From an uncultured Prevotellaceae bacterium (GTDB taxonomy: Bacteria > Bacteroidota > Bacteroidia > Bacteroidales > Bacteroidaceae): a stretch of DNA of 63,665 nt. The position numbers were made by a program, and so were the translations under genes. The DNA is taken from the NCBI GenBank assembly GCA_946402905.1, contig CAMIYC010000016.1:1-63665 (forward strand), written 5' to 3'. Position 1 is the stretch's first letter; each line of letters begins with the position of its first letter. Of the stretch, positions 4,765-53,833 are shown one piece after another. Below the pieces are notes generated by a model. The model was not told the origin of the DNA. It did not search any database and saw only the letters and a list, made by a program, of their open reading frames with translations.

Positions 4765-5093
4765 TTTTGTAAAGAATATGGGGGTTGTTCTTTTTAGAGT
4801 GAACAGCTTACTCTGTAGTTAATTTCTCTTTTGCCGCAAAAATAATCAATAAATCCACAATACGATTTTAATTTTTGTTAAAATCCTCTAAATGTAAACC
4901 GATAAGCGACGTTAAAACACTGAAATGTAATGATTTATCTAACATGTTAATCTTAATTTGACATGCTATCCTCTCAGCGGCTTTGTGGCAGATTTGATTA
5001 TGACATACAGACCTTGTCAAATATTCCTATTTTTGCGCTGTCACTGATTGTATAGAACGTGAGAATCAGCAATTATATAAAATGTCATAAGAT
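4765..5093. other. Intergenic region between HTH and portal genes
   Basis: A 329-base AT-rich region. It contains the divergent promoters of the HTH gene (-7 box 4837-4844) and portal gene (5001-5035), a perfect 10-bp palindrome TAACATGTTA at 4940-4949, and an additional TGACAT at 4959-4964. No gene is seen. Confidence 0.6.
5001..5035 (+). promoter_or_regulatory. Portal promoter, TGACA type
   Basis: TGACA at 5001-5005 and TATTTTTG at 5028-5035, with 27 bases from T to T. The normal TTTG -33 box is absent. The same arrangement precedes the terminase, scaffold, capsid and tail units. Here TGACA is also followed by TGTCA at 5015-5019, making an inverted repeat with a 9-base gap. Confidence 0.75.
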
Positions 5094-6632
5094 ATGCAAA
5101 TGAATTTACAATTATTGGATGAGGCAAGACGCTGCTGGTTGCAGATGTCGGCATTTCGTGACAACAGGGAGCGCTGCAAGCGTTATTGTTACGGCGACCA
5201 GTGGGGCGATATGGTGCGTGTGGGCAGGGAATGGGTGCGTGAGGACCAGTATATACGCAGCCAGGGCAGTGAACCCCTGAAAAACAATTTGATCCGCCGA
5301 CTGGTGCGGCAGGTGCTCGGCCTGTACCGTTCTTCTGCCAAGCCGCTGAACTGTGTGGCCAGTGGTGAGCACTCCAAGGCGAGTTCGGCCATGCTGTCGG
5401 CCATGCTGTCCTGCAACCATCGGCTCAACCATGCCGACGAACTCAATGCGAGGGCTCTCGAGGAGTTGCTCATCTCTGGAATGACGGTGCAGCGCAAGTC
5501 CTACACACGCAGGCGCGGCCATGCCGACTGCTATACTGACATCGTTTCGCCGGCGTCGTTTTTTGTCGATAGCTCCGGAGCCGACCTGAGAGGGTGGGAT
5601 GCACAGCTGCTCGGGCAGGTCCACGACTTGAGTTTCGACGCGCTCTGCCAGCAGTTTGCCCATAGTGCCGACGACTGCCGGCGCCTGGCGGGGGTGTATG
5701 ACCCGTCGGCTTATTCCGTCAGGGTGCGCGACACCATGTCACAGATGGGGGGCTGTTCATCCGGCGATGCCTTCTTCCAGCCTTCCCGACCATCGGCGTG
5801 TCGTGTGATCGAAGTGTGGCGCAGGGAGCGGGTGCCCGTCTATCTCTGCCATGACCGTGCCACGGCAAGTCTTTTCTATATCGATGTGGATGAATGCCCT
5901 CCTGAGTTGTTGTCCGACCCGCAGGTGAGCCTGCAGTGGATGTCGGTCGACGAGTGGCACTACTATTATCTCTCGCCTTTCGGCCATGTGCTGGAGCACG
6001 GTGTGACGCCTTTCGAGCACGGCGAGCATCCTTTTGTGTGGAAGGCTTATCCTTACATCGACGGGGAGATACACTCGTTTGTGGCGGATGTCATCGACCA
6101 GCAGCGTTATACCAACCGGCTTATCACACTCTACGACTGGGTGATGCGCTCTTCTGCCAAGGGGGTGCTCCTCGTGCCGGAGGAATGTGTGCCAGAGGGC
6201 TACAGCATCGACGATATCGCCGACGAGTGGGCACGGTTCAACGGCGTCATACCGGTGCGCACACGCAATGGCGCACAACTGCCGCAGCAGGTATCGGCCA
6301 ATGCCGTCAACGTGGGCATCAACGAGCTCCTGCAGACGCAGCTGCAGTTCATGGAAGATATCTCTGGAGTCACCGGGGCGTTGCAGGGCAAACTGAACAC
6401 CTCGAGCGTCAGTGGCACGCTCTTCGAACAGCAGACGCACAATGCCACACTCTCACAACTCGACTTGCTCGACACGTTCCACAGTTTTCTCGTCGAGGGG
6501 GCGGAGAAAGACCTCAGCCTCATGCGGCAGTATTACACCCGTCAGCGTGTCCTGCCTTCCGCCGATGGCAGCCCCTCCGTCGTCTACGATCCGGAGATGA
6601 TGAGGGGTGCGAGGAATATCATGGTCGAGTAA
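5094..6632 (+). CDS. Phage portal protein
   Basis: A 512-aa protein with the features of podovirus-type portal proteins of Bacteroidetes phages. It has an N-terminal YGDQWGD segment, then a helical EPLKNNLIRRLVRQVLGLYRS region, a wing domain, and a late helical stem with VTGALQGKLN, SGTLFEQQ and NATLSQLDLLDTF. Portals form the dodecameric ring at one capsid vertex through which terminase packages DNA. The frame is open throughout. No phage gene adjoins it: an HTH gene is on the left and a protease operon on the right, which is unusual because portal genes normally sit beside terminase and capsid genes. A TGACA-type promoter lies 59 bases upstream. Assignment is by sequence pattern, without a database search. 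Confidence 0.8.
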   Translation: MQMNLQLLDEARRCWLQMSAFRDNRERCKRYCYGDQWGDMVRVGREWVREDQYIRSQGSEPLKNNLIRRLVRQVLGLYRSSAKPLNCVASGEHSKASSAMLSAMLSCNHRLNHADELNARALEELLISGMTVQRKSYTRRRGHADCYTDIVSPASFFVDSSGADLRGWDAQLLGQVHDLSFDALCQQFAHSADDCRRLAGVYDPSAYSVRVRDTMSQMGGCSSGDAFFQPSRPSACRVIEVWRRERVPVYLCHDRATASLFYIDVDECPPELLSDPQVSLQWMSVDEWHYYYLSPFGHVLEHGVTPFEHGEHPFVWKAYPYIDGEIHSFVADVIDQQRYTNRLITLYDWVMRSSAKGVLLVPEECVPEGYSIDDIADEWARFNGVIPVRTRNGAQLPQQVSANAVNVGINELLQTQLQFMEDISGVTGALQGKLNTSSVSGTLFEQQTHNATLSQLDLLDTFHSFLVEGAEKDLSLMRQYYTRQRVLPSADGSPSVVYDPEMMRGARNIMVE

Positions 6633-6663
6633 AGATGATCTTAGGCTTTTGTTGACGCAGGGG

Positions 6664-6867
6664 CTATTTGCCTTTGTCAGGTTCGTTCCACAGACCGTCG
6701 CCGTAGTTGGAGAGGTCGTCTTCAAAACTGTCGTCGAAGTGCGAGGAATTGGAGTCAGCCCAGTCTTTGTCGGCTCCTATCCCTCCTCCCGAAATCGTTA
6801 GGAGGAGGTGGCTTTTCAAGAGGCTGGTGCAGATGTCTGTCTCTGGCTTGATATATCTGGTTTTCAT
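6664..6867 (-). CDS. Small YxxP/WNE peptide
   Basis: A 67-aa protein. The first eight residues are MKTRYIKP, then a hydrophobic stretch LLKSHLLLTISGGG, then an acidic, Ser/Asp/Asn-rich body ending in GLWNEPDKGK. It belongs to the same family as the proteins at 1764-1973 and 20706-20870 (Tyr5, Pro8 and a terminal W-[DN]-E). It starts 12 bases after the stop codon of the M6 metalloprotease on the same strand, so both are probably made from one message. The protease could process or co-export the peptide; that is inference. Confidence 0.7.
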   Translation of the reverse strand: MKTRYIKPETDICTSLLKSHLLLTISGGGIGADKDWADSNSSHFDDSFEDDLSNYGDGLWNEPDKGK

Positions 6868-6879
6868 GTCCGTCTGGTG

Positions 6880-18341: not shown

Positions 18342-20501
18342 TCAGTTCCAAAGACCACCGGTGGTATGCGACCGGCGCCTCTGCGTCTGGCGCGCGATCC
18401 ATTTCGGCAGTGGCATCTCGCGCAGGCAGATATGCAGCCCGATGGCACGTGTCATCAGCAGGTCGTCGTGCTTGCCCTCCACGGCGCCGTAACTGCCGTT
18501 CTGCCTGCGCACGTAGGTGTCCAGCTCGTCCAGGCACCGCTCGTCACGCTCTACGTAGAGCCGCTCTCGCACCACCTCCACCAGTGTGCTGATGATTTCG
18601 GGTTTCGTTTTCACATTGGTGTGAAAGCCGTATTTCACGGGGCGTCGATCCCTGATGTCCTCCGCACTCTGGCGCCGGGCGTAGAGATTGGGATACACGG
18701 CTTTGATCTCGTTGAGGATGTAGGCCGACTGGTCGCCGCCTTCCACCCATCTCGAGTCGTCGTGGGTCTCCAGCGTGTTCGACTCGATCACCAGCAGAGC
18801 GTCGTCATAGTAGCGGGCCACCTGGGCCGCCTTCCAGGCCAGCAGGTCGATGTCGGTATGTCCGTACCATTGGGCGCAGATGGTGGGCTTGTCGCCCTGC
18901 GTCATCCAGTAGCGGTCTATCACGCAGATCACCGACCAGTCGGCCTTCTCGCTGCGCCCGCCGATGTCTACCACCACCTCATAGCGGTCGCTCATGTATC
19001 CGTCGTCGAAGTGTTCTGGCTCATCCCATATCCACAGCAGACCGTCGTTGTCTTCCACAAAGCGTATTCCCTCCAGGGCGTTCTTGCCCTTGATGGCCAT
19101 GGCGGTGAGGTCTCCTTTGCGGCGCGGTGGGCGGCAGCCCTTGCGCAGGGCGTGTATCTGGTAGGTGTCGAATACGCGTGAACCGCTGTTCTGGAATGCC
19201 TCGATATCGTCCGAGGGGAATTCTGCCGCCATGTTGCCGTGGTCGTTGTATTTGCGGCGCTCGCTCACATACCATTTGATGGCTTCGAGGGTGGCTCCCA
19301 TCTCCCACAGTCGCCACAGGTAGCGGCCTGGCTCTTCACGCAGGCTGGCAGCGTGTTCTGACGCTCTGTTCTCCCAGAGCCAACGGGCAAACTGCTCCGG
19401 GCGGTCCACCCGCAGTGCATATTGTTCGATCTGCCACCATGCCACGAAGAGCGGCTTGAACTGCGAGAGTCCGCTCTTGGCGGCATCATACTCCCTCTGG
19501 AAGAAGTTGCCGGTGCCGTTGGCCGTCGACTCATACACAATCATCGTGCGCGGCTTGTAGGAGGCACCGGCACATGCCGAGCGTATGATGTCTTCGGGGG
19601 TCTTGTTGTCGGTCTTACGCCAGAATGCCACCTCTGTGCAGTGCACCAAGGCGGTGTCTCCGCCGCGGGCGGAGTTGGGGGTCTCTGCCGATCCTACTTT
19701 TATCTTGCAGTTGCGCAGGGGGATATACCTCATGAGGCGTGTGTTGCGGTCGCCGACTATCTTGGGCGTTTCTTTCTTCTTCCTCGCTGTCGTCTTCACG
19801 CTGTCTCCTGACCGAGAGAAGACGTCGCAGCAGTCGGCCAAGGATGGGGTGGGGAGGTCTTCGTCGTCCCCTTCGCTGGCGCATTCGAGCAACCGCAGTG
19901 GATAATTATCCATGAGTTTGTCAAACATACTGCTCACCTCTGCCGAGGCGGTCTTCACATGCCCTACGATGAGCGAGTTGAGGCCTTTGTGCTGTATCAG
20001 CTGAAGCCATGCCATGTAGATCTGTGTCACTGTCGAGCCGCCCCACTGACGGGCTTTCAGCACGATCACTCTGATAGGTTCGCCGCGCAGACGGGCTTCC
20101 TCGAGCAGCGACACCAGCCGTCTCTGCGGACGGTTCAGCACGAAGGGGATGTCTTCACCGCCGTCCTTGGGTTTGATGCGCACGTAGCGCCAGGCCCAGT
20201 AGCAGAAGTCGTGCTTGCATCTCGACAGTTCCAGTTGCTCAAGTGCCTCCATGTGGGTGAGTCCTCTACACTGGGCGTATCCCTTCACCGAGCCGCATTC
20301 CACGATGCCGCTCACCAGGGGTATTTCAAGCATCCTGTCGGGCAGATAGACATCGCGGGGCAGATAGTCGTCGATATGTACGTGGGTGCGGTGATGGAGA
20401 CATCCCTCACCGGTCTGTGGTTGGAAAATAGCTTGGATGGCATCGTTGCGGAGTCGGTTTTCCTCCAACATCCTGACGATGACTGATTGTTCGGTGTCCA
20501 T
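18342..20501 (-). CDS. Phage terminase large subunit
   Basis: A 719-aa terminase with both activities apparently intact. The ATPase Walker A is KARQWGGST near residues 148-156, Walker B with its catalytic Glu is CTEVAFW near 287-293, and the coupling motif ESTANG is near 324. The nuclease acidic residues lie in VVDIGG (about 509), VIESNT (about 570) and HDDLLM (about 677). It would translocate DNA into a procapsid through the portal and cut the DNA. The gene stands alone, with a GH2 gene on one side and a small peptide gene on the other. The frame is open end to end. A TGACA-type promoter sits 29 bases before the ATG. Confidence 0.9.
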   Translation of the reverse strand: MDTEQSVIVRMLEENRLRNDAIQAIFQPQTGEGCLHHRTHVHIDDYLPRDVYLPDRMLEIPLVSGIVECGSVKGYAQCRGLTHMEALEQLELSRCKHDFCYWAWRYVRIKPKDGGEDIPFVLNRPQRRLVSLLEEARLRGEPIRVIVLKARQWGGSTVTQIYMAWLQLIQHKGLNSLIVGHVKTASAEVSSMFDKLMDNYPLRLLECASEGDDEDLPTPSLADCCDVFSRSGDSVKTTARKKKETPKIVGDRNTRLMRYIPLRNCKIKVGSAETPNSARGGDTALVHCTEVAFWRKTDNKTPEDIIRSACAGASYKPRTMIVYESTANGTGNFFQREYDAAKSGLSQFKPLFVAWWQIEQYALRVDRPEQFARWLWENRASEHAASLREEPGRYLWRLWEMGATLEAIKWYVSERRKYNDHGNMAAEFPSDDIEAFQNSGSRVFDTYQIHALRKGCRPPRRKGDLTAMAIKGKNALEGIRFVEDNDGLLWIWDEPEHFDDGYMSDRYEVVVDIGGRSEKADWSVICVIDRYWMTQGDKPTICAQWYGHTDIDLLAWKAAQVARYYDDALLVIESNTLETHDDSRWVEGGDQSAYILNEIKAVYPNLYARRQSAEDIRDRRPVKYGFHTNVKTKPEIISTLVEVVRERLYVERDERCLDELDTYVRRQNGSYGAVEGKHDDLLMTRAIGLHICLREMPLPKWIARQTQRRRSHTTGGLWN

Positions 20502-20529: not shown

Positions 20530-20564
20530 CAAAAATAAGGGTTTTTATACTGTCCGGACTGTCA
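20530..20564 (-). promoter_or_regulatory. Terminase promoter, TGACA type
   Basis: On the minus strand AAAATGACA (TGACA at 20564-20560) precedes TATTTTTG at 20537-20530, exactly 27 bases from T to T. TGACA continues into the dyad GTCCGGAC (20558-20551). A short inverted repeat GTATCT/AGATAC (20513-20530) overlaps the start region. Confidence 0.75.
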
Positions 20565-21245: not shown

Positions 21246-21330
21246 TTTTGGTAGATTTTACTATCAATTTTGTTTGATTTAGAGGCCGACAGGCCGACCT
21301 TTGAAGGGTGACTGAGTGATTACGTTTGTG

Positions 21331-21424
21331 GTAATTACTCAGTTCACCATGGGAGCGCGGGCGTCCTCGCCCGCAATTAGTGGCGGGCGGGGCGCCCGCG
21401 CTCCCAAGTGAAACAGGAAATTAC
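21331..21424 (+). repeat. GC-rich REP-like palindrome, copy B
   Basis: Starts GTAATTACTCAGTTCACC, contains long inverted GGGAGCGCGGGCG arms, and ends GGAAATTAC. It is the same family as copies at 10020-10109 and 31742-31852. Confidence 0.75.
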
Positions 21425-21469
21425 TCCCGTTCCCTCGTAGGGGAAGGGTAGGGGTGGGGTGACAAATCT

Positions 21470-22138
21470 TTATCCTCGCTTCACCCTTTTTTCGTTGCCA
21501 CGTTCCCATATCGACAGACGGTCGGCAGCTGAGAGGCCTCCTATCACGTGATGGGGCACTGCATGGCTGGCGTGCTGACTCGTGCCGCCGAGGTCGTGCA
21601 GTTCTGCCGCTTTGCGCCTTTCTATCAGGTATTCGTCGATTCGTGTGTTGCGGCCCTTGATTTCGCCTCTGATCTCGCCCTGACGGGCTGCCTCGGCTAC
21701 ATCGTGGTCGTAGTGTGCGGATTTGCGTATCATCTCGATGGTCTCCTCACAGAGTTTTCCTGACAGCAGTTCTTCTGCCAGCCTTCCTGCGAGTGCTTCC
21801 ACCTCTGGGTCTCCTTTCAATGTCTTCAGGGCCGAGCGCCATCGCTCTTCAGGCAGAGCCGGTGTCTGGGTTGGTGGTTGGATCGGTTTCTCTGATGCTC
21901 TCTCGTTCTCTGGGGCTTCCTGGCTTTCCGGGTCATTCACTTTCAGTGAGGCTTCTTGATTCTCGGGCTTCTCCTGGATTTCGGGCTTGTCCGGGGCTTC
22001 CTGGTTCTCTGGCTTCTTCGGGGCTTCCGTTTTCTCTTTTGTGACTTCCGGTCTTTCTGTGGTGGGTTGTTCAATGGGGGTGGTCGTGGAGACTTGCTCC
22101 ATTTCTGCATGGGGGGAAGATACTTTTTCCTTTTTCAT
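21470..22138 (-). CDS. Scaffold-like phage protein
   Basis: A 222-aa protein from the ATG at 22138; a TTG 15 codons upstream is unlikely. The first half is a low-complexity Pro/Glu/Lys linker with repeated KPENQE-like units. The second half is helical, ending with an ARQGEIRGEIKGRNTRIDEY segment and a short C-terminal GGLSAADRLSIWERG. This resembles proteins encoded just before the capsid gene in Bacteroidetes phages, which are likely scaffolding proteins (from memory, not searched). Here it is 19 kb from the capsid gene. A TGACA-type promoter lies 43 bases upstream, which links it to the capsid and terminase genes. Confidence 0.55.
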   Translation of the reverse strand: MKKEKVSSPHAEMEQVSTTTPIEQPTTERPEVTKEKTEAPKKPENQEAPDKPEIQEKPENQEASLKVNDPESQEAPENERASEKPIQPPTQTPALPEERWRSALKTLKGDPEVEALAGRLAEELLSGKLCEETIEMIRKSAHYDHDVAEAARQGEIRGEIKGRNTRIDEYLIERRKAAELHDLGGTSQHASHAVPHHVIGGLSAADRLSIWERGNEKRVKRG

Positions 22139-22180: not shown

Positions 22181-22215
22181 CAAAGATATGGTAAGTATGA
22201 CTCATGGATATGTCA
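22181..22215 (-). promoter_or_regulatory. Scaffold-like gene promoter, TGACA type
   Basis: On the minus strand AAAATGACA (TGACA at 22215-22211) precedes TATCTTTG at 22188-22181, exactly 27 bases from T to T. There is no TTTG -33 box. Confidence 0.75.
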
Positions 22216-40972: not shown

Positions 40973-41007
40973 TGACATGACACTCTCCAGTCATTGCTTT
41001 ACTTTTG
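40973..41007 (+). promoter_or_regulatory. Capsid-operon promoter, TGACA type
   Basis: AAAATGACA (TGACA at 40973-40977) precedes TACTTTTG at 41000-41007, exactly 27 bases from T to T. The upstream context, CTAAAATGACA, is identical to that of the terminase promoter. TTTG is absent at the -33 position. Confidence 0.75.
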
Positions 41008-41045: not shown

Positions 41046-42521
41046 ATGCAAAAGACAATGAAAAAGAAGACAACTTTAGTGAAAAATTTGGTGAGCCTTG
41101 CCGCTAATGGCGTGGCCATGGCACTCGGTGCCGACGCTGGCGTGCTGATGGCCGCTGCTGCCACACTGCCCGACGCGGGCAAGACCGTGGGCGGCCACGA
41201 GAGTTACAAGGGCACCACCGAGCGCATCCGCACCGCGGGTGCCGAGGCCGCCAACCCGACCAACCCCGACGGCATCATGACCGAGACCGCCGGACGAGGC
41301 GAGGGCGACCCGGAGATGTATCAGAAGGACATCGACGAGCGCATCACCAAGATCCGGCCCATGGCCACGCCCATCGACCAGATCTCGCGATTCGCCACGG
41401 CTCAGAAGAGCTCCAGCTTCGAGGTGAAGTACTACAGCGTGGGCACACGCCCGGTGCGCACGAAGTTGACCGCAGCGGTGACGGCGAGCACGGGCACGTC
41501 GTGCGCCATCCAGGTGGCCGACCCCGACATCTTCACCCTCGACGACACCATCCGCGTGGTGGGGGTCAAGGCCATCACCGACTACAAGGGCGCGGCCTAC
41601 AACCGCAACGACCGGCGCACACCCGACCTGGTGCTGTGCGTGGTGGGCAAGACGGCAGAGGGACAGCCCATCGTCTATGCGGTCAACGGCAACGACGTCA
41701 ACGGACAGCCCATCGGCCTGCCCGCCATCGGGTCGAACACCACGCTCATCCGCATGGGCAAGAGCTGCGGCGAGCTTGACGTGCAGACCGGACGCTTCAA
41801 CAACATCCCCACGAGCGAGATGCAGTACTGCCAGAACTTCATGGCACAGATCGAGCAGTCGACGCTTGACAAGATCGCGGCAAAGGAGGTCGACTGGGGC
41901 TTCACCGACCTGGAGGAGGACAGCATCTACGACATGCGACTGGCCATGGAGAACTCGTTCCTCTTCGGCGACATGGGAAAGGTCAACCACCAGGCCAAGG
42001 ACGGCATGTCGCAGTGGTTTACCAAGGGCATCTGGTGGCAGGCCGGCAAGGACATCGAGGTGGGCAGCTACGACGAGGAGGCCGACGAGACGGTGGTCAC
42101 GGACGAGGACCTGGTCGACATCTCCAAGGACCTGTTCGTGGGCACGGGCATCGGCAACAAGCGCAAGGTGCTGCTCTGCGGCAGTGACTTCCTGGCGGCC
42201 CTGTCCAAGATCAAGAGCGAGAAGTTCCGCCTGAAGGACACCGTCGAGGTGTGGAACCTGAAGTTCAAGTCGTGGGAGACGGACTTCGGCGAGATCCTGG
42301 CGATGCACGACGAGCTGTTTGACCTGAACGGCATGTCGGATCGTGCCTTCGCGCTCGACCCGGAGTTCCTCACCAAGAAGACCCACCTGAGCTGGAGCCG
42401 CAACATCCTCGACCTGAAGAAGGCGGGCGTGCGCAACACCGACGCCGTGGTCATCCAGGAGATCTCCTGCCTCTACCTGCGCTATGCCAAGGCTCACGCG
42501 CGCCTCTCGCTGGCAGGATAG
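41046..42521 (+). CDS. Major capsid protein (HK97/SU10-like)
   Basis: A 491-aa protein from the ATG at 41046; the frame is open further up but the promoter lies at 40973-41007. The pattern (QKDIDERITKIRPMATPIDQI, then KSSSFEVKYYSVGTRPV, RLAMENSFLFGDMGK, KVLLCGSDFLAALS and FDLNGMSDRAFALDPEFL) fits the SU10-type/DUF5309 capsid family of HK97 fold. It would form the icosahedral shell. Codons are strongly GC-ending, with higher GC than the surrounding surface-protein genes. It heads the run of phage genes to 48437 and probably shares transcript with them, though gaps of 94-211 bases separate them. Confidence 0.82.
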   Translation: MQKTMKKKTTLVKNLVSLAANGVAMALGADAGVLMAAAATLPDAGKTVGGHESYKGTTERIRTAGAEAANPTNPDGIMTETAGRGEGDPEMYQKDIDERITKIRPMATPIDQISRFATAQKSSSFEVKYYSVGTRPVRTKLTAAVTASTGTSCAIQVADPDIFTLDDTIRVVGVKAITDYKGAAYNRNDRRTPDLVLCVVGKTAEGQPIVYAVNGNDVNGQPIGLPAIGSNTTLIRMGKSCGELDVQTGRFNNIPTSEMQYCQNFMAQIEQSTLDKIAAKEVDWGFTDLEEDSIYDMRLAMENSFLFGDMGKVNHQAKDGMSQWFTKGIWWQAGKDIEVGSYDEEADETVVTDEDLVDISKDLFVGTGIGNKRKVLLCGSDFLAALSKIKSEKFRLKDTVEVWNLKFKSWETDFGEILAMHDELFDLNGMSDRAFALDPEFLTKKTHLSWSRNILDLKKAGVRNTDAVVIQEISCLYLRYAKAHARLSLAG

Positions 42522-42615: not shown

Positions 42616-43068
42616 ATGAAAACATACCGCTCTCAAACAGAAATCGTTATCAGCGTGCGCAAAGCGCACGCTGATAAAAACACACGGGTGAGGTTCGAGC
42701 CTTTCACCCTCGGTGGAAGCATGTTTGCCACCGACGACCATGAACTGCAGGACGCCATCGAGCGTCACCGCTATTTTGGCTCCCTCTTTATACTCGACGA
42801 GACACCCGCTGTCGACATGACGCCTCCGGCCGACATCACCGCACGACAACCGTCAAAAGAAACAGCATCCGACCACATTCAAGTGATGGATTTCGAATCG
42901 CTGTCTGACGCCAAAGATCATATCGCTGAGGCTTATGGCGTCAGCCGCACCTCTATGCGTACCAAAGAACAGATTGAGACGGCAGCTGCGCAGCATGGAC
43001 TTACCATCCGCTGGCAAAACGTCGCTCCGATGCACAATGACCGTCCTCGGCTTTTAGAATTTGTATAG
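42616..43068 (+). CDS. Phage head accessory protein (hypothetical)
   Basis: A 150-aa protein. The first half has a small beta-rich domain (VRFEPFTLGGSMFATDD) resembling proteins encoded next to capsid genes in Bacteroidetes phages; the second half (SLSDAKDHIAEAYGVSRTSMRT) looks like a LEM/HeH-type DNA-binding or head-completion helix pair. A perfect 14-bp hairpin with a 3-base loop lies within codons 11-21 (42647-42677), an odd feature inside a coding sequence. The stop codon TAG at 43066-43068 overlaps the first bases of the 194-bp repeat element. Confidence 0.6.
   Translation: MKTYRSQTEIVISVRKAHADKNTRVRFEPFTLGGSMFATDDHELQDAIERHRYFGSLFILDETPAVDMTPPADITARQPSKETASDHIQVMDFESLSDAKDHIAEAYGVSRTSMRTKEQIETAAAQHGLTIRWQNVAPMHNDRPRLLEFV
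42647..42677. promoter_or_regulatory. Perfect hairpin inside coding sequence
   Basis: TTATCAGCGTGCGC (42647-42660), AAA, then the exact complement (42664-42677). It is too strong to be coincidence and lies about 30 bases after the start codon, where it could affect translation or transcription. Confidence 0.6.
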
Positions 43069-43279: not shown

Positions 43280-43870
43280 ATGAAATATCATCAAGAAGAC
43301 ATGATGAGGGATGTGCGCGTCGAACTCGGATATAACCCCGACAATATGGCGCTCATCGAGGCAGATGACATCGAAACCTTACGTCTCGACGAGATGATCC
43401 GCCGGCAGGTCATCCCGTCGGCGTGCCAGGTGCTCTGCACGGCACCAGTGGAGCGCATAGACACCTGCCGGCCACTCAGGGGCACGCTGGCATGGGCAGA
43501 ACAGGAGGGGACGGGGATGGCTTTTATGGTATTGCCCGACGACTTCCTCAGGCTCATCTCGATCAGTATGACCAACTGGCGGCGACCGGCGAAGATCATC
43601 GCTGAGTCAGATCCGCTCTATCCGTTGCAGTCGAGTCCTTTTCCCGGCGTGAGGGGCAATCCCGACCGCCCGGTGGCTGCCATCGTAAGATATCCCGCCG
43701 CATTGGTCGTGGAACTCTATGCCGCCACGGGTGGGGTGGAGGCAAAGCTCCAGCGTGCTCTTTATGTCGCCGCACCGCGTTTTAATTCCGAGGGATACAT
43801 TGATCTCCCGGCTCCTCTCTATCACGACATTATCCGTCAGATAGCAGAGACCGTGCGCACAGTAGTATGA
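43280..43870 (+). CDS. Head-tail connector/adaptor protein (probable)
   Basis: A 196-aa protein. Its opening (MKYHQEDMMRDVRVELGYNPD) and the segments DDIETLRLDEMIRRQVIPSA and VLPDDFLRLISISMTNWRRP resemble the adaptor or ring protein encoded after the capsid gene in Bacteroidetes podovirus-like phages. It would sit below the portal and join the tail. The 194-bp repeat element ends 19 bases before its ATG. Assignment is by pattern and position and is tentative. Confidence 0.6.
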   Translation: MKYHQEDMMRDVRVELGYNPDNMALIEADDIETLRLDEMIRRQVIPSACQVLCTAPVERIDTCRPLRGTLAWAEQEGTGMAFMVLPDDFLRLISISMTNWRRPAKIIAESDPLYPLQSSPFPGVRGNPDRPVAAIVRYPAALVVELYAATGGVEAKLQRALYVAAPRFNSEGYIDLPAPLYHDIIRQIAETVRTVV

Positions 43871-44036: not shown

Positions 44037-46982
44037 ATGTCATATCCCATGAATCATCTCCAGGGCGACCTGATGGTTGACAACGACTTGTTTGTAGGCG
44101 GCAGGCATCAAGTGGCACAAAACGCGCGTTTTAAGCGTGATGTCTTCATCGAGGGGACGCTCTACTGCCGCCAGTTGAAAAATGCGGACCAACCGCCAGA
44201 AGATACTCAAACCACGCTCGAGACGGAAATCTCCGTAGCCAATAAAAACTCCAAGAACCCCGCCACCACCGAGGCCATCTACAATGCCATCGACTCCGTG
44301 CAGGGCGACGTCGACGTCAACACCCAGGACATTGACACACTCACTGAACGTATCACCACCCTCGAACAAAACGCCGCCTCCGCCCCAACCCCCACCTCCC
44401 CTCCTTCGGAGGGGCCGGGGGAGGTTCCCGAGGACGACGACGAGACGCTCTATCCTGAATACTACGGTGCCGTGGCCGACGGCATCGACTACTACGACTG
44501 GCCGCTGCGATGCTACAACGGCGAGGTGGAGCTGCAGGCGAGCCAGATCGAGACCGGCGTCTACCCCCAGAAGGTCTTCGCACCGTCCGAGCGCATCGCA
44601 TACCGATTTGCCGACATGCCCGGCTTCATCTCCACCGACCAGGTGTACTACAACACCGTCACCCGCCAGTTCGTCCTGGGCGTCGACGACGGGGGAGTGA
44701 CCAAGTACTACGCACGATGGGGAGGAGAGTTCGGATGGAACCGCTCCTGGGGCGACGACTTCGCCATGTGGGCGCAGTTCTGCGGCTCGTCGGCCGAGTG
44801 GAACGACGAGGGAGACGTCTCCGTCAGCGGAGTCGTCAGGCGCGCCGGTACCGGACGGGCACGCACCGACTGCATCTACTCCGACATATCGCCGCGCGAC
44901 GACGGCTCGGGCAAGCTGCGCCGCGTGACCAGCGTGGTGAGAAACGGACAGCTCGTCGACATCGTCACGACCATGACCTCCGACGAGGAGGCGCTCTATG
45001 CCTGCATACGCGCCACGAAGGGCAACATGCGCCTGCACAGCGGCAAGATCTACTTCGTCAACCGCACACAGACCTACGACAGCGCGGCCAACTCGCCGCT
45101 GAGCGGCCTCTCCGACTTCGTCCTCGACGGACAGGGCGGAGTGGTCTTCTGCTGGGGAGCGGCCACCGTGGCATACAACGGACAGACCGGAGGCTCCAGC
45201 GCCGGAAGCCTCTTCCCAATGTTCAACTGCGAGCGAGGCGTGGTCAGACGCCTCAAGCTGCGCACCCTGCGCGACCGCGACAACGGAGCGCCATCCGGCC
45301 ACCGGCGCTTCTCATCGTCGTGCGGACGCCGCACGGCCTTCGGAGTCTTCGGGTCGCAGTCAAAGGGGACGTACTGCCGCAACCTGCGATTCGAGGACAT
45401 CTCCTTCAAGGGCTTCTACCAGGACTTCGACATCCGCGGCAACGGCGTGCGGGACATCGAGATCACAGGATACACGTCGCGGGAGATGTGCCAGAACTTC
45501 ATCTCGGGAGCCAAAAACGTGCTCATACGCGACGTCGACGTCATGCAGAACGGATTCTGCGCCGGCGGACTGCACGTCATCTACGGCTCGTCGGGGCTCA
45601 CCGGCATCACCGTCCAGGACGGAGTCATCGCCACCAGTGCACCATGGGTGGGAGTGATGCTGACGTATCACGGATCCGTCACCGCACAGGACGAGGAAAT
45701 CGACGACACGACGGGCGATGTGACCGTCGTCTCCACCAACGTCAAGCCCGCCGACATCCACTACCACAACATGCGTCTCTATGCCTCGCGCATCGCACAG
45801 GGTGGCTCCGGCACCAACCGGCCCCAGTGGCAGCACTTCCACGACTGCCTGCTGGTGCAGACATGGGACGGCAAGATACTCACCGACGCATCATGGGACC
45901 GCAACATCAACGGAATGATCATCGGGTCGGCAGTCAACTTCGAATTCGACAACTGCCGCTTCGTGCTCGCAGGCAGCCGCCTGATGACCTACAACAACGA
46001 GACGTGGACACAGCTCCTGATGCGCAACTGCGGCATCTACTCTCACGACGTCTACGGCGACAACGCACAGATGACACTCGTGGCAGGATTCCGCGGCACA
46101 CTCCTCGCCGACTCCGTCACCGTCGACTGGGCAGGACAGACGGGAGTCGACTTCACGCGCGGCACCAGGGAGGCGCGGCGCGAGTTGCAGGAGGCGTCGG
46201 CCGAGGCGCTGGAGCTCTCGCGGCGACACGACGCAGTGCTCTACGACGCCGACGTGAGCGGCGCCGGCAGAGGCCCCGAGGCAGAGCTCTACATGCGCGA
46301 CCCCGAGGAGGGCGAGACCTACCTGGCCACCGACACCGACAAGCTCTTCACATGCGCCACCGCGGGCGTCAAGGGAGCGTGGCTCATCTACGGCAAGGCC
46401 GACAACTTCACCGCTGGCGACTTCCACGGCACCGTCACCATGCGCTTCTCCGAGGTCGAGACCGAGACGGTCAGGGTCGACGCCACCGGCGTGGAGACGC
46501 TCACCGACCTGTACCATGCCATCGGAGCGGCGTTCGCCGCCGCAGGCCACCGCGTGGCTTATCCCGGCGACACCAACTCGGGCCACTACGGCGTGCTGGT
46601 GTATGAGAAGTGGCCCTATCCCATGCCATCCGGCGTGCGCAGCGTGAGCCGCTCGTGGGAGAACACCTCCACGGGCGCCGCCAGCCTGCTGCTGGGATCG
46701 GGCGCGCTCTGGCAGTACGTCACCGGCATAGCCCCAGTCTGGGAGGAGACCGAGGCCGAGGGAGTGGTCACGCGCCTGGAGCGACTACAGGAGCGCGTGG
46801 CAGTGGCAGCCTCAGGAGAGGCGGAGCTGCCCGAGAACCTGCACGTGGGATACACCTACTTCGACGAGACGGCCGGCAAGCCCCTCTGGCTGCACAGCAT
46901 CGCCCAGGACGGCACCTACAACTGGGTCGACGCCACCGGCACCCCCTACCTGGGAAGCGGCAGCGGCCAGGCCGGACTCTAA
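44037..46982 (+). CDS. Phage fibre/tailspike protein with beta-helix domain
   Basis: A 981-aa protein. Residues 1-110 form an N-terminal attachment region with a trimeric coiled-coil-like part (NAIDSVQGDVDVNTQDIDTLTERI). A repeat-derived linker at about 118-132 (TSPPSEGPGEVPE) comes from an intergenic GC-rich element at 44389-44426. The central part (about 330-700) has beta-helix rungs of the pectate-lyase/P22 tailspike sort (FVLDGQGG, LRFEDISFKGFYQDFDIRGNG, VLIRDVDVMQNG). The C-terminus has small beta domains for receptor binding or trimerisation. It would bind or degrade cell-surface glycan. GC content is higher than the host average. The frame is intact. Confidence 0.75.
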   Translation: MSYPMNHLQGDLMVDNDLFVGGRHQVAQNARFKRDVFIEGTLYCRQLKNADQPPEDTQTTLETEISVANKNSKNPATTEAIYNAIDSVQGDVDVNTQDIDTLTERITTLEQNAASAPTPTSPPSEGPGEVPEDDDETLYPEYYGAVADGIDYYDWPLRCYNGEVELQASQIETGVYPQKVFAPSERIAYRFADMPGFISTDQVYYNTVTRQFVLGVDDGGVTKYYARWGGEFGWNRSWGDDFAMWAQFCGSSAEWNDEGDVSVSGVVRRAGTGRARTDCIYSDISPRDDGSGKLRRVTSVVRNGQLVDIVTTMTSDEEALYACIRATKGNMRLHSGKIYFVNRTQTYDSAANSPLSGLSDFVLDGQGGVVFCWGAATVAYNGQTGGSSAGSLFPMFNCERGVVRRLKLRTLRDRDNGAPSGHRRFSSSCGRRTAFGVFGSQSKGTYCRNLRFEDISFKGFYQDFDIRGNGVRDIEITGYTSREMCQNFISGAKNVLIRDVDVMQNGFCAGGLHVIYGSSGLTGITVQDGVIATSAPWVGVMLTYHGSVTAQDEEIDDTTGDVTVVSTNVKPADIHYHNMRLYASRIAQGGSGTNRPQWQHFHDCLLVQTWDGKILTDASWDRNINGMIIGSAVNFEFDNCRFVLAGSRLMTYNNETWTQLLMRNCGIYSHDVYGDNAQMTLVAGFRGTLLADSVTVDWAGQTGVDFTRGTREARRELQEASAEALELSRRHDAVLYDADVSGAGRGPEAELYMRDPEEGETYLATDTDKLFTCATAGVKGAWLIYGKADNFTAGDFHGTVTMRFSEVETETVRVDATGVETLTDLYHAIGAAFAAAGHRVAYPGDTNSGHYGVLVYEKWPYPMPSGVRSVSRSWENTSTGAASLLLGSGALWQYVTGIAPVWEETEAEGVVTRLERLQERVAVAASGEAELPENLHVGYTYFDETAGKPLWLHSIAQDGTYNWVDATGTPYLGSGSGQAGL
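44389..44426. repeat. Intergenic GC-rich repeat captured inside the fibre gene
   Basis: CCCACCTCCCCTCCTTCGG and its complement form a hairpin. It matches the intergenic copy at 9742-9778 at 36 of 37 bases and is translated in frame here. Confidence 0.75.
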
Positions 46983-47127: not shown

Positions 47128-47613
47128 ATGAATAAAGTGCAAACAACTCGTCCACTTGTCCACTCGTCCACTCGTCAACTACCCTGGCACGGCAAATACT
47201 TCACCCTGGAGGAAATGACCGCCAGCCCCACCGCCCGGCGGCTGTCCATCGACAACACCCCCACGCCAAGGATCGTGGAAAACCTCCAGCTGCTCGTCGA
47301 CCACGTCCTCGACCCCCTGCGGCAAAAGTGGGGCCACCCGGTCATCGTCACCTCCGGATACCGCTGCCCGCTTCTCAATACTGCGGTGCACGGTGCGGTG
47401 AAGAGTCAGCACCGCCTCGGCCAGGCCGCCGACATCCGCACCCTGAGCGACAGCCGTGACGACAACATGGCCCTGCTGAGATGCCTGATCGACTCGCAAT
47501 TACCCTTCGACCAGCTCATCGCTGAATATACAGACCGTCAGGGACGCCCCGACTGGATACATGTGTCATACTCCGACCGCCACCGCCGGATGATCTTAAA
47601 GAAACCCCTCTGA
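47128..47613 (+). CDS. M15-family peptidoglycan peptidase (probable endolysin)
   Basis: A 161-aa D-Ala-D-Ala carboxypeptidase-like enzyme. Residues about 18-160 cover the peptidase M15 core with the zinc-binding HRLGQAADI (His about 95, Asp about 102) and the catalytic/His motif DWIHVSY (about 141-147). The first 20 residues derive from a simple repeat (CACTTGTC/CACTCGTC) also seen near serB, so the N-terminus has been rewritten or is disordered. It has no signal peptide and lies next to a holin-like gene, which fits a phage lysis pair. Confidence 0.8.
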   Translation: MNKVQTTRPLVHSSTRQLPWHGKYFTLEEMTASPTARRLSIDNTPTPRIVENLQLLVDHVLDPLRQKWGHPVIVTSGYRCPLLNTAVHGAVKSQHRLGQAADIRTLSDSRDDNMALLRCLIDSQLPFDQLIAEYTDRQGRPDWIHVSYSDRHRRMILKKPL

Positions 47614-47751: not shown

Positions 47752-47982
47752 ATGAACTCAAAAGACATCATACAGTATGCTTCGGCCATCGCAATGATCG
47801 TTTCGGGCATCACGCTGGCATTCCTCTCGTTTTTCAAAAACGACGGGGATATCTCTGAGGGCGTGCTATGGTATGTGGCACAGGCCCTGACCTACGCTGG
47901 AGGCATCTTCGGCGTGAGCATCTATTTCAAGACCAAACTCTCCGACCTCGAGAAACGTATCAATCATCATCCAAAACCATGA
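47752..47982 (+). CDS. Holin-like small membrane protein
   Basis: A 76-aa protein with two hydrophobic helices (about 5-28 and 42-62) and a short charged C-terminus (TKLSDLEKRINHHPKP). Size, topology and position directly after an endolysin gene fit a phage holin. The stop codon overlaps the start of the next gene as ATGA, so translation is coupled. Confidence 0.6.
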   Translation: MNSKDIIQYASAIAMIVSGITLAFLSFFKNDGDISEGVLWYVAQALTYAGGIFGVSIYFKTKLSDLEKRINHHPKP

Positions 47983-48437
47983 CATTCACCATTACCATCT
48001 ATCGTGACGACATCTTGCGGAGGGTGAAAATGACCACCGCCTATCTCGCCGTCAACCACCACGACGCACCGGCGTCATTCGACCGCATCGCTGCGGCCAG
48101 TGCCGATGACGACATCCTGCGACACTACTGGCAGGATGCCTGCGAAGAGTCCAACGCTTGTCTGCGCTCATGGATACATACAGCCGCGACTTTACCTTCG
48201 GTTGATGCTGACCGCTACGAGGTCATGCTTCGAATGCGCCCTCCTGAGGTGAGCCTCAGGCAGGAGTCCGTATCGAGCATGCTCCAGGCCATGATGGTGG
48301 CGTCGATACTCTCACGCTGGACCTCCATCACCTGTCCGGAGGCGGAAAACCGGTTTGTGGCAGAGACGCAAGACTGGCGAGCCCGACTCGCCCGTCTCCT
48401 CTCATTCAAACCGCACCGCCGCCGTGGCGTATGGTGA
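47979..48437 (+). CDS. Phage structural accessory protein (hypothetical)
   Basis: A 152-aa helical protein. The start at 47979 overlaps the holin-like stop (ATGA), which decides it against a frame that opens 111 bases earlier. Segments such as RDDILRRVKMTTAYLA and DDDILRHYWQDACEESNACLR recall, from memory, proteins near the connector genes of Bacteroidetes phages. It may be a head- or tail-completion protein. No enzyme motif is seen. Confidence 0.55.
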   Translation: MTFTITIYRDDILRRVKMTTAYLAVNHHDAPASFDRIAAASADDDILRHYWQDACEESNACLRSWIHTAATLPSVDADRYEVMLRMRPPEVSLRQESVSSMLQAMMVASILSRWTSITCPEAENRFVAETQDWRARLARLLSFKPHRRRGVW

Positions 48438-48515: not shown

Positions 48516-48543
48516 CACTCAAATATTAAAAATACACACCGCT

Positions 48544-48765
48544 ATGTTTTACGCAATTATCGGATTCGTCGGCTTTTTCGCCATCGCCATCATAGGATGG
48601 GCCATCGCAGAGATGAAAGCCAAGGCATGTACTTATCAAAAGAACGAGGAGGAGATAGAAGCTGAAAGAAAAGCTGCGGAACTCCTTCACACCAACGGAT
48701 ATTCAGAGATGAGCATCCGTGACGTGGTCAAGAACATCAGCACAAAGGGCTTCCAGACCACCTGA
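48544..48765 (+). CDS. Small membrane protein
   Basis: A 73-aa protein with one N-terminal membrane helix (about 3-22) and a charged, coiled-coil-like region (YQKNEEEIEAERKAAELL). A spanin-like role is conceivable next to holin and endolysin genes, but it has its own TTTG-type promoter and so may be a cellular gene. Unknown function. Confidence 0.6.
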   Translation: MFYAIIGFVGFFAIAIIGWAIAEMKAKACTYQKNEEEIEAERKAAELLHTNGYSEMSIRDVVKNISTKGFQTT

Positions 48766-50834: not shown

Positions 50835-50840
50835 GAAAAA

Positions 50841-53036
50841 TCATGTTTTTTTGTAAAAACTCACACCCATGCCCGAAATCCTTTCGTGGCCGAGCAGCGT
50901 GCCGGTGACCACGACACGGTGCCAGCGGAAGGGGGTGCCGCGCAGGTGTGTGAGCCATCGGTTGCGGCTCGTAGCTACAAGGTGCCAGTGGGCGAGGTCG
51001 TTGCTGCCATAGAGTGCCATGCCGATATGGCTGTGATGGAAGGTGTCATCGAAACAGCCTCTCAATATCACACTGTCGACCGTCTTGGGCACATGGCGGA
51101 GGTCAAAGCTGAGCGCGCGGGTGCACAGCAGGAATGGAAGACCGGCGGGGGTGACTGTCATAGTGTCGGCGGCGATGGCACCCCACTGCTGCGAACGGAG
51201 TGAGTAGACCAGTGCATAGGGGTGCTCTGACGTGCTGAGGACGAGGTGCTCACGGCAGGTGTCGATGCTGAGTCGTGCGCTGGGCAGAAACCGGCTCCTG
51301 AAGGGTGCATAGCGACACGTGCCGCGTGAGATGCCTGTCTGGGTGGCGATGATGTCGTCGATATGGGGCAGTCGCGAGAGGTCGAATGGGCGGCCATGCA
51401 GGGGAACGGACACACAAGTGGTCTTGCCCAGCGCCGTCAACATGACACCTTGCTGGGTGGTGAGGGCACTGATGCCGTCGGCGGCAGCAGCGTGAAAACC
51501 CGTCAGCATGACTTCCGGAAGCGGAGCGGCGATGGCTTTCGATTTAGCCAACTCGAAATCCTCGGTCCGCTCTGTCTGCCACAGCATGCTACCGCCCTCA
51601 TATAAGCCGCTGGCATTGTCGAGATAGACGGTGCGCACCTGATGCAGCAGTAGGGAATGAAACGCAGGGCGCGACGCGCGGTGGGCTCCACCTTCTGTGG
51701 CGAAAACCGCGGCCCGGAAACCGTGGTCGCCCATCTGCCGCAGGTATACGGTGGCGGTGTGATAGTGATCGCCGTCGGGGGCCATGACACGTAGATGCAA
51801 CTCTGCGTAGGATGCGTTCACATAGGGATACATCAGTACGCCGGGGAGAGGGTAGGGCACCTCGGCGAAAAACCAGGCTTCCTGATCGCTCCCGACAGAG
51901 AGTCTGATGGCCAGTTGCGCTCGTATCCCCTCGGCATGGTCGTAAATGTCGGGACGGAAGTCGGCCAGCTTCTCCGACCGTAGCAGCTCTTCCTGTGCTA
52001 CACCGGTGGCGTCGCGCCGGGCCTGTGCGGTGGCGGTGGGGTAGATATAGGTGAGTCCGATGGCAAAAGGGTGGGGGAGCGTCTGCGGAGAGTGAAGGAG
52101 ATAACGGTGTCCGTGGCTGGTGATGGTGTGGTTGACGGTCGGAGGCAGGCGGCGCAGATGACCGGGTGTAAGGGGGGCGGACAGGGTTGATATGTTTTGC
52201 AGGGCGACGGCATGGCCGAATTGTTCGCGACCGATGGTGGTGGAGGGGTAGAAGTCCAGATGCTCAAACACTTCTGCTGTGTCTTGCGGACCCAGTATGC
52301 CAAAGGTGAGCGAGGTGGCCAGCCCCTCCGCGTTGACTGTCGACTGGAGCGCACGGCGCATGTCGAGGAAGCTGACGGGGCGACTCAGGTACACCTGTGC
52401 GCTCTCTACCAGCCGATGCACCTCGGCGGTGGGATGACGCATCGTCACGGTGATGCGGTGACGGTGAAGCGAGACACTGCATGAGAGCTCCTCCGCGGCG
52501 TAGTCGGCAGTGATGGCGCCAGGCATCGTGGCTGGGATGAGCGCGAAGATGGGGGAGTATAAAACACTGGAACCGTCGGTCAACTGCAGGGTCACGATGC
52601 CGAAGCAGATATGCTTGAACACACCGTTGCCCCGGCGAGAGGCCTCGCGGTCGATGGCGGCCTCCATGTGGGCGGCGATCATCGTCGCACCGGTGGCGTA
52701 TGACTCCCGGCTGTCGTAAAAATGGGGAAATATCCGGTCTATCAGCGTGCGACGGGTGGGGAGCGGCTCGCCGACAGCTTTCAGGTGGGATTTCAGCGTG
52801 GAGGTCAGACGGGTGGTGACAGTGCAGAACACGGGCGTGTCCTGGCTGACCTCTATGTCATAAAGCAGGTGGTCGTAGGGGATGATGGCCTCATAGCTGT
52901 CGTCTGCCTGCATCCAGGGCCTCAACTCTCCGTCTTCCGACAGCAGGTTGACCATGGCGCAGAGCGCTCCGTCCGGAGCCTCATGCTCCGACGGATTCCA
53001 ACTCATGCCCGAAAAAGGTATCTCTCTCTTCTCCAT
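50841..53036 (-). CDS. Phage tail protein, beta-propeller type (probable)
   Basis: A 731-aa protein from the ATG at 53036; a TTG two codons earlier is less likely. The start FSGMSWNPSEHEAPDGALCAMVN and the following EDGELRPWM resemble the opening of phage tail tube/stabilisation proteins of the P22 gp10 or tail-tubular B kind, where an N-D/E-x-G-x-L-x-P motif introduces a beta-propeller. It is mostly beta-strand with no membrane helix. It is last in a leftward operon with two small phage-like genes, driven by a TGACA-type promoter at 53799-53833. Assignment is from pattern only. Confidence 0.55.
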   Translation of the reverse strand: MEKREIPFSGMSWNPSEHEAPDGALCAMVNLLSEDGELRPWMQADDSYEAIIPYDHLLYDIEVSQDTPVFCTVTTRLTSTLKSHLKAVGEPLPTRRTLIDRIFPHFYDSRESYATGATMIAAHMEAAIDREASRRGNGVFKHICFGIVTLQLTDGSSVLYSPIFALIPATMPGAITADYAAEELSCSVSLHRHRITVTMRHPTAEVHRLVESAQVYLSRPVSFLDMRRALQSTVNAEGLATSLTFGILGPQDTAEVFEHLDFYPSTTIGREQFGHAVALQNISTLSAPLTPGHLRRLPPTVNHTITSHGHRYLLHSPQTLPHPFAIGLTYIYPTATAQARRDATGVAQEELLRSEKLADFRPDIYDHAEGIRAQLAIRLSVGSDQEAWFFAEVPYPLPGVLMYPYVNASYAELHLRVMAPDGDHYHTATVYLRQMGDHGFRAAVFATEGGAHRASRPAFHSLLLHQVRTVYLDNASGLYEGGSMLWQTERTEDFELAKSKAIAAPLPEVMLTGFHAAAADGISALTTQQGVMLTALGKTTCVSVPLHGRPFDLSRLPHIDDIIATQTGISRGTCRYAPFRSRFLPSARLSIDTCREHLVLSTSEHPYALVYSLRSQQWGAIAADTMTVTPAGLPFLLCTRALSFDLRHVPKTVDSVILRGCFDDTFHHSHIGMALYGSNDLAHWHLVATSRNRWLTHLRGTPFRWHRVVVTGTLLGHERISGMGVSFYKKT

Positions 53037-53073
53037 TTTCAATTTACAAATCTTAATTTTTAATTTTTAATTT

Positions 53074-53451
53074 TTAATTTTTCCTGACCAGTGTGACCGC
53101 ATTGCCTATTCCCGGTATGAGCTTCAGTTCCCCGGCGATGAACGTCACTTTGTCTGCCCCGCGGGCCGAGCGCAACAGATAGGCCGACAACGACTTGCTG
53201 AACATGCGCATATAGCGGCCTGCGCCTTTGACCGAATGACAGCGGCAGGTGTGGCGACCCGTGGTGTCGCCCTTGCGGTGTGCCACGTATAGGTAGTATT
53301 CCCTGACGGTGTCGTCGGAGACGGCAATGCTGAGGATGTCGCCATCGCACAAATGTAGCAACTCCGACAGATGGGCGGTGATGTCTATGCGGCCACTGGC
53401 ATGGAAGGTGAGGTCGCCGCATCGGGTGAGGGGTGCTAACGGACGGATCAT
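53074..53451 (-). CDS. Small phage protein
   Basis: A 125-aa protein with no recognised domain. Its ATG overlaps the stop of the upstream gene (ATGA), so translation is coupled. The downstream tail gene starts 37 bases later, across a TTTTTAATTTTTAA low-complexity stretch. It has features of Bacteroidetes phage accessory proteins (short beta segments such as LTFHASGRIDITAHL, DILSIAVSDDTVREYYLYVA). Function unknown. Confidence 0.6.
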   Translation of the reverse strand: MIRPLAPLTRCGDLTFHASGRIDITAHLSELLHLCDGDILSIAVSDDTVREYYLYVAHRKGDTTGRHTCRCHSVKGAGRYMRMFSKSLSAYLLRSARGADKVTFIAGELKLIPGIGNAVTLVRKN

Positions 53452-53678
53452 AGGACATCGGTTTTAAAGTAGGCATGGCGTGAACGGAATGCCACGGTCT
53501 CAATATAAACATAGGTGCGGGTCTCCTCGATGCGATGGCGGTGAGCCTCGGCCGAAGCGCGTGTGAGATGTATCTGCGAGGCTATGTCGTAGCGGTCGCT
53601 GCCACGCTCGCCGATAATGACGGCGTAGTATACCCTGCCAAATAAAAACTCGGAAATAGCGGAAAATAGTCTTTTCAT
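53448..53678 (-). CDS. Small phage protein, first gene of the tail operon
   Basis: A 76-aa basic protein starting MKRLFSAISEFLFG; an ATG four codons upstream at 53690 is an alternative. Segments YYAVIIGERGSDRYDIASQIHLTRASAEAHR and VETVAFRS-like YIETVAFRSRHAYF recur, from memory, in small proteins of Bacteroidetes phages. A TGACA-type promoter lies about 120 bases upstream. It overlaps the next gene by four bases. Confidence 0.55.
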   Translation of the reverse strand: MKRLFSAISEFLFGRVYYAVIIGERGSDRYDIASQIHLTRASAEAHRHRIEETRTYVYIETVAFRSRHAYFKTDVL

Positions 53679-53720
53679 GTCTCTGGTCATAACATTATTA
53701 AAATTAATTTTATATTTTCT

Positions 53721-53751
53721 TTTGCGTATTAGTTTAATTTTATTAATTTTG
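53721..53751 (+). promoter_or_regulatory. Promoter of S24 repressor gene
   Basis: TTTG at 53721-53724, a 19-base spacer and TAATTTTG at 53744-53751: the cellular promoter form, with a leader of about 125 bases before the ATG. Confidence 0.7.
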
Positions 53752-53798
53752 CAGCGAAATAGAACTGAAAAATGAAATGATAGTTTATATTTATGGCA

Positions 53799-53833
53799 CA
53801 AATATAAAGAATTATGCCCTAAAGAAATTGTCA
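53799..53833 (-). promoter_or_regulatory. Tail-operon promoter, TGACA type, with overlapping palindrome
   Basis: On the minus strand AAAATGACA (TGACA at 53833-53829) precedes TATATTTG at 53806-53799, exactly 27 bases from T to T. A 25-base inverted repeat TTTATATTT-N7-AAATATAAA (53784-53808) covers the -7 box and start region and is a candidate operator for the adjacent S24 repressor. Confidence 0.75.

Follow-up and report, generated by a model that had tools for sequence, protein, structure and literature searches.

Phage-type units and a shared promoter in the window

A stretch of 63,665 nucleotides from an uncultured Prevotellaceae bacterium (assembly GCA_946402905.1, contig CAMIYC010000016.1), hereafter called the window, carries phage-type genes for a portal protein, a large terminase subunit, a scaffold-like protein, a major capsid protein and a tail-type protein in separate units among cellular genes. 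In a sequence-only reading it had been claimed that these five units share one promoter, in which TGACA stands exactly 27 bases ahead of a TAnnTTTG -7 box. The five sites were found at the places and on the strands claimed, with this distance in each of them. AAAATGACA, which had been claimed for four promoters, was seen in four of the five, and the portal site has GATTATGACA instead (Table 1). The eight promoters listed as cellular all have TTTG-N19/20-TAnnTTTG. PHROG and Pfam matches showed that the genes behind the five sites are of phage type, with ordinary genes in between.

TGACA-N22-TAnnTTTG occurs six times in the window versus 0.02 times expected from dinucleotide shuffles, and none of 100 shuffles reached six matches. 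Five of the six matches are located 28-108 bases 5' of phage-type genes, the likely start codon lying 28 bases past the end of the -7 box for the terminase, 38 for the capsid, 42 for the scaffold-like protein, 58 for the portal and 108 for g53. The capsid start had been listed as 40977, which falls within the promoter, and was corrected to the likely start given in Table 1. The sixth match (32076-32110, minus strand) lies without the A-run inside a dockerin-type gene on the opposite strand and is probably due to chance.

Table 1. Boxed promoters and phage-type genes of the window (pLDDT, predicted local distance difference test; dN/dS, ratio of nonsynonymous to synonymous substitution rates)
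Feature	Position	Strand	Remarks
Box promoter, portal unit	5001..5035	+	GATTATGACA, without AAAA
Box promoter, terminase unit	20530..20564	-	AAAATGACA
Box promoter, scaffold unit	22181..22215	-	AAAATGACA
Box promoter, capsid unit	40973..41007	+	AAAATGACA
Box promoter, g53/tail unit	53799..53833	-	AAAATGACA
Portal protein	5094..6632	+	PF16510 7.5e-36, phrog_156 1e-67; alone between grpE and peptidase M6 gene
Terminase large subunit	18342..20501	-	phrog_2, phrog_5989, phrog_24361; stands alone; dN/dS 0.10-0.18 (6 pairs)
Scaffold-like protein	21470..22138	-	Likely start 22138; phrog_22323 (function not named)
Rhomboid-like membrane protein	23914..24414	-	Beside g24 in phages too; phage records say rhomboid
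g24, two tandem three-helix modules	24360..24818	-	phrog_27246; model pLDDT 92; candidate activator or small terminase
Major capsid protein, SU10 type	41046..42521	+	PF17236 6.6e-31, phrog_26635 1.1e-218; dN/dS 0.06-0.22 (21 pairs)
g42, 3' of capsid	42616..43068	+	phrog_23743 (function not named); adjoins capsid in relatives
g43, 3' of g42	43280..43870	+	phrog_22135 (function not named); same position in phages
Large fibre-like protein	44037..46982	+	Name by position; weak phrog_20787
Peptidase M15 endolysin	47128..47613	+	PF08291, phrog_894
g47, phage-type protein	47868..48437	+	phrog_35482
g48, small protein, one hydrophobic stretch	48544..48765	+	Conserved at end of capsid unit
Tail-type protein	50841..53042	-	Name from sequence-only reading; phrog_32516 (function not named); homologue in BKO1-TP3, BS-TP4
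g53, small phage-type protein	53448..53690	-	phrog_30965 (function not named); homologue in BKO1-TP3, BS-TP4
Helix-turn-helix (HTH) and S24-type repressor	53883..54668	+	phrog_4, weak HTH and S24 Pfam matches; divergent from g53 unit

The name of the scaffold-like protein was given from its position directly upstream of the capsid in related phages. Ordinary genes between the units are of purF and grpE type or encode a peptidase M6, SusC/SusD, a glycosidase and a serB-type phosphatase, and further a copper-type ATPase, two deoxynucleoside kinases, dockerin and leucine-rich-repeat proteins and a prolyl-tRNA synthetase, some of these names being a reading of family matches. A Pfam or PHROG scan of 41 window proteins, which did not extend to smaller open reading frames, to three further ones of 199-300 codons or to the remaining genome, gave no integrase. 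At 21330-21450, between the scaffold and terminase units, a GC-rich inverted repeat (gagcgcgggcgccccgcccgcc ... gcgggcgaggacgcccgcgctc) was observed that resembles repetitive extragenic palindromes.

Distribution and probable phage origin of the promoter

A motif search of the whole genome, suggested as a check by the sequence-only reading, gave 14 matches on several contigs versus one for a reversed-pattern control. When 398 genomes of the same genus were searched with the capsid, 35 matches at E up to 0.001 were obtained; the 26 genomes with E < 1e-60, source genome included, were taken as capsid-positive and the nine weaker matches were counted as negative. The longer motif AAATGACA-N22-TAnnTTTG was found at 80 sites in the 26 capsid-positive genomes versus 31 sites in the 372 others, with at least one site in 15 and 30 genomes, respectively. 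The association of motif and capsid gave a Mann-Whitney p of 7e-17, for genomes that are not phylogenetically independent. The claim of a common switch was in this way exposed to the objection that the motif might be common before ordinary genes, and it stood, the longer motif being rare in capsid-negative genomes. The spacing is also preferred, since 35 of 77 AAATGACA-N10..34 matches in 11 capsid-positive genomes have a gap of 22, and the next commonest gap is seen in 7.

The genes behind the motif were analyzed for 71 distinct sites from 14 capsid-positive genomes, which stand for 73 of the 80 sites (two identical copies merged), and for 23 of the 31 capsid-negative sites. Six phage-type protein clusters, on many contigs, are preceded by 57 of the 71 sites: 28 replication-initiator-like proteins, 9 scaffold proteins, 8 capsids, 6 spanin-like lipoproteins, 4 terminases and 2 portals. 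Singletons include a g42-like head protein, an amidase endolysin and g53, and AAGATGACA sites precede the portal also in genomes G049 and G063. Proteins downstream of the 23 capsid-negative sites cluster with nothing and form no family. Judged from these sequences, the boxed genes are a regulon with a shared promoter. Phage-type and cellular genes stand together on several large contigs, which argues against a binning artefact. A separate group of TGACA-N22-TAnnTTTG sites (TGACAAGTGACTTTC.., TGACATTCCTGTTTCC..) was observed in clusters in genomes without this capsid (G079 contigs C38/C65, G080 contigs C90/C93 and G045 contig C1), and the shorter motif is therefore used in one further context at least.

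The initiator-like cluster was built by single linkage. Of seven representatives scanned, four (L013, L245, L230 and L243) match replisome organizer, replication initiation or helicase loader families; L010, L116 and L255 match only function-unknown families (DUF6291, phrog_19415), and phrog_19415 is matched by L230 and L243 as well. The term spanin-like is a reading of short lipoproteins for which no family scored above the cut-off. The cellular neighbors of some boxed units were named by reading their sequences and not by searches. A boxed spanin-like unit of G009 (L274:8157-9842) is followed after 195 bases by the presumed rpsL, rpsG and fusA genes, an initiator-like unit of the same genome adjoins pyrimidine- and asparagine-type genes, and the presumed pheS and gapA genes of G000 are ∼5 and 12 kb away from initiator copies.

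Some further observations were made on boxed units. In G000, four contigs (C23, C40, C62 and C90; L010-L012 and L014) carry copies of one boxed DUF6291 initiator-like unit, some of them truncated, and the DNA just 5' of L010 and L014, the two copies compared, is also nearly identical. Iteron-like repeats of 12 bases (TGTGACG/TGTTACG type) were seen within the boxed initiator-like genes L129, L106, L128, L132, L234, L255 and L267, as if an origin lay inside the gene. In three genomes, a gene resembling those of extracytoplasmic function (ECF) sigma factors, a second small gene and a large outer-membrane-type gene are located just 3' of boxed units (L273:12342-16251, L281:10433-18127 and L237:1-1801); this trio was read by eye, with one pair compared by tblastn, and is possibly due to chance.

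The nearest annotated phages are the Bacteroides temperate phages BKO1-TP3 (PQ571269), BS-TP4 (PQ571277) and BF1-TP2 (PQ571263), which are 64-68 kb in size. All three have the same capsid family (49-68% identity) and homologs of g24, rhomboid, terminase, scaffold, capsid, g43 and portal in a compact order, and the S24-type repressor of the window shares 43% identity with the repressor annotated in BF1-TP2. In BKO1-TP3 and BS-TP4, TAAAC is located exactly 27 bases before TAnnTTTG at the scaffold and the portal, whereas no such box was seen at these genes in BF1-TP2. The phages differ from the window in having compact genomes and other box letters, and in that the capsid, placed after the scaffold, has no separate promoter. 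The annotations of two of them include an integrase or tyrosine recombinase, BS-TP4 having been examined over bases 1-50000. An intact prophage of the BKO1-TP3 type, with a contiguous genome and an integrase, was not recognized in the window, where the units are split by cellular genes and the scanned proteins include no integrase. In PQ571269.1 and its relatives, the terminase is annotated as a tail spike protein and a reading frame of ∼5,550 codons adjoins the portal.

The register of the box was also found in 80 viral contigs that carry related capsids. There, GATAAA is followed by TAnnTTTG at N23 in 63 of 69 matches and TTAAnnGATAA is present in this register in 32 of 32. The box of the related phages, TTAAnnGATAAA, has exactly the same register as the TGACA box. 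Throughout the viral collection, TTAACGGATAAA-N23-TAnnTTTG was found in 31 stretches in 22 contigs, of which 14 have g24, one more has other element genes and seven have none in the DNA examined. Enough upstream DNA was available for 76 of 80 g24-bearing viral loci; in 74 of these, the strand that runs divergently from g24 carries a TAnnTTTG with TA at its -27 position. Intermediate boxes were identified as GATAAAC in the compact element of G143, GATAACA/C in G113 and G182, GATGACA in G182 and TTAAACGGATGACA in G142 and G019. This graded series, in which changes of a regulator and its sites can be watched together, is read as one late promoter that changed its letters and kept its place. An origin of the box from a phage late promoter is strongly supported, and TTAAnnGATAAA-N23-TAnnTTTG is likely the late promoter of a Bacteroidales phage group. 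Since the capsid comes after the scaffold and the terminase after g24 and rhomboid in the phages and both are boxed in the window, promoters would have been gained as the genes moved apart. Neither the origin from a phage late promoter nor the replication-initiator-like and lysis-type genes of the regulon elsewhere in the genome had been foreseen in the sequence-only reading.

Promoter architecture and candidate regulator

In 82 non-redundant sites, a set that includes capsid-negative sites and has TGACA and the -7 box by definition, information was found in an upstream A/T stretch (roughly ATATTAAAA), TGACA, the -7 box and a C following it, and little at the -33 TTTG position. The primary-sigma promoter of Bacteroidota is described in the available part of PMC7366714 as TTTG at about -33 and TAnnTTTG at -7. 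The -7 box is present in the boxed sites by construction of the search, and the -33 TTTG is missing: TTTG 22-25 bases ahead of TA could be identified in 0 of 71 boxed sites versus 9 of 44 TAnnTTTG in the window. The TGACA box replaces the -33 element, whose TTTG none of the 71 sites keeps. With TA at -14, TGACA spans about -41 to -37, where a class II activator would be placed. Because the box is found at this place and the -7 box is unchanged, an activator is preferred to an alternative sigma factor, and a phage-derived activator bound near -41 likely switches the units on. Of the earlier proposal, which left the choice between an alternative sigma factor and an activator, the shared switch is thus strongly supported, genome-wide and tied to the capsid gene, and for the regulator an activator fits better.

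The protein g24 is present in all 26 capsid-positive genomes, and in a sample of 396 genomes 34 of 35 g24 carriers are also among the 35 capsid matches. In six genomes, no TGACA-N22 box was found on the g24 strand within 260 bases upstream, and in two of these a standard TTTG -33 promoter is located there. The S24-type repressor is present in 20 of the 26 capsid-positive genomes and was not detected in G393, a genome with five boxed sites. Because of this distribution, g24 is considered a better candidate for the activator than the repressor. In the comparison with the late activator C of phage Mu and class II activation, the match of g24 is within noise, and g24 is predicted to be a single-chain protein with two modules. 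At two other loci, L536 (G298) and L537 (G155), g24 is near that of the compact group (67-79% to the nearest query) and the nearby capsid has only ∼25% identity, a pattern that on these identities is modular exchange.

Inheritance, rival explanations and comparison with gene transfer agents

In a capsid tree of 32 rows, 21 capsid-positive genomes form one clade with a support of 100/99, outside which lie the eight sampled phages, G065, G053 and also G143, which groups with phages. Two kinase genes are located near the capsid in nine genomes (G000, G009, G036, G063, G176, G200, G236, G319 and G376), and the portal adjoins grpE and purF in G000 and G376. The dS values are high, and they are saturated in 9 of 10 portal and 8 of 10 scaffold pairs, so that only capsid and terminase are informative; by their dN/dS (Table 1), both are under purifying selection. 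Identity correlates with that of the neighboring copper-ATPase with rho 0.82 for the terminase (15 pairs), 0.78 for g24 (28 pairs) and 0.44 for the capsid (36 pairs), the pairs not being independent. In this comparison of pairwise identities, distances agree well for terminase and g24 and moderately for the capsid. A mostly vertical inheritance with co-diversification of element and host, which the shared neighbors in nine genomes and the single capsid clade support, may apply.

The best reading of these sequences is a domesticated, dispersed element in Bacteroidota that resembles a gene transfer agent (GTA). In a group of Prevotella-type genomes, the genome-wide promoter set would have its source in the late promoter of one group of temperate phages of Bacteroidales, and a single activator of phage origin on the TGACA box, in place of the -33 element, would turn the scattered units on together. 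Their products may still assemble into GTA-like particles that package host DNA, and phage-type initiators round the chromosome would start local replication and feed the packaging motor. Taken as a whole, dispersed promoters from a phage late promoter, a single activator and GTA-like particles packaging host DNA are judged fairly probable. A more far-reaching version is put forward tentatively: Bacteroidota would have a GTA of their own, derived from a dismantled temperate phage whose genes for structure, lysis and replication are now split into units among housekeeping genes (one just 5' of rpsL), each unit with its own copy of the late promoter, and a retained activator would trigger the particle together with many phage-type replication starts round the chromosome, so that host DNA is amplified and packed, the box having drifted with the activator while its position was kept to the base. 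Several findings speak against an element that works fully in every genome. The capsid of G063 is truncated and the genes after it are gone, some initiator copies are short or broken, and the compared spanin-like units are not at shared places. Some cellular-looking or very short frames are among the singletons behind the sites. The fold evidence for g24 is weak, and g24 could equally be the small terminase, which its position before the terminase fits.

The available part of PMC9662315 gives as GTA criteria structural proteins of tailed phages, endogenised genes, often at several loci, mostly vertical inheritance, packaging of mostly random host DNA, a particle too small for its own genes and delivery to cells. 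Structural proteins related to tailed phages are present here (portal, terminase and SU10-type capsid, with an endolysin), and the genes are endogenised among cellular genes at several loci, with five units over 49 kb and others on other contigs. Two of the six criteria are seen in this way, and the element is not classed as a proven GTA. One packaged piece could hardly hold all element genes, which are spread over many contigs. In Rhodobacter capsulatus, the activator GafA binds the promoters of the structural cluster and of lysis in RcGTA (PMC6363796; PMC9662315, as far as their available text goes). Endogenised structural genes and one activator for structural and lysis promoters are common to both systems, the activator being a predicted one here. 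RcGTA has one main structural cluster, whereas the element described here is split into separate capsid, scaffold, terminase, portal and tail units, has a shared promoter box that can be seen in the sequence and includes replication-initiator-like genes. The Bartonella BaGTA has a phage-derived chromosomal replication start with run-off replication, linked to the packaging of host DNA. A similar link between a phage-type replication start and packaging is predicted here from the genes; unlike in BaGTA, many initiator-like genes carry the promoter of the particle. The available text of PMC9662315 has no word beginning with Bacteroid- and describes GTAs from other phyla, and that of a gut study (PMC12946183) makes no mention of Prevotella and reports GTA activity mainly in Ruminococcaceae and Oscillospiraceae. 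If the GTA-like reading is true, genes would be exchanged in the rumen by a new route, a promoter-tagged dispersed element of gut Prevotella, and the promoter motif is a tool for finding scattered parts that gene clustering misses.

The truncated capsid and lost downstream genes of G063, truncated initiator copies and the lack of an integrase among the scanned proteins would also fit a decaying prophage, the units being remnants with old phage promoters and no joint function. This is thought unlikely, since the intact capsid and terminase are under purifying selection between species, the same neighbors are kept in nine genomes, and the two genes have box promoters of their own, unlike in the compact phages, as if promoters had been gained and not just left. 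If TGACA were instead the -35 element of an alternative, ECF-type sigma factor, the fixed spacing to the start-side box would be explained, and many ECF sigma factors are present in the phylum (PMC7366714, available part) with ECF-like genes near some boxed units. However, the -7 box is of the primary-sigma type, TGACA occupies the positions 27-23 bases ahead of TA, farther upstream than a -33 element usually is, and the register is retained in the phage group, where the box is another one, so that this explanation appears quite improbable.

The least probable of the rival explanations, with a small chance only, is that the box is the operator of the HTH-S24 repressor and that derepression, for instance by DNA damage, switches the units on. 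The divergent orientation of the repressor gene and the boxed unit, its identity to the BF1-TP2 repressor and its retention in most capsid-positive genomes are in favor of this; it is contradicted by G393, where boxed sites were found and the repressor was not, by the exact 22 bases to the -7 box, which an operator does not need, and by the absence of the -33 TTTG from all 71 sites, as these promoters look activator-dependent. Somewhat doubtful, although the least unlikely of these alternatives, is an explanation that concerns the boxed initiator-like units only, which could be independent mobile elements that borrowed the promoter of the phage element. They are multi-copy, with near-identical boxed copies on the four G000 contigs, but one initiator-like gene is followed by a DnaB-like gene in the same order in both G009 and G200.

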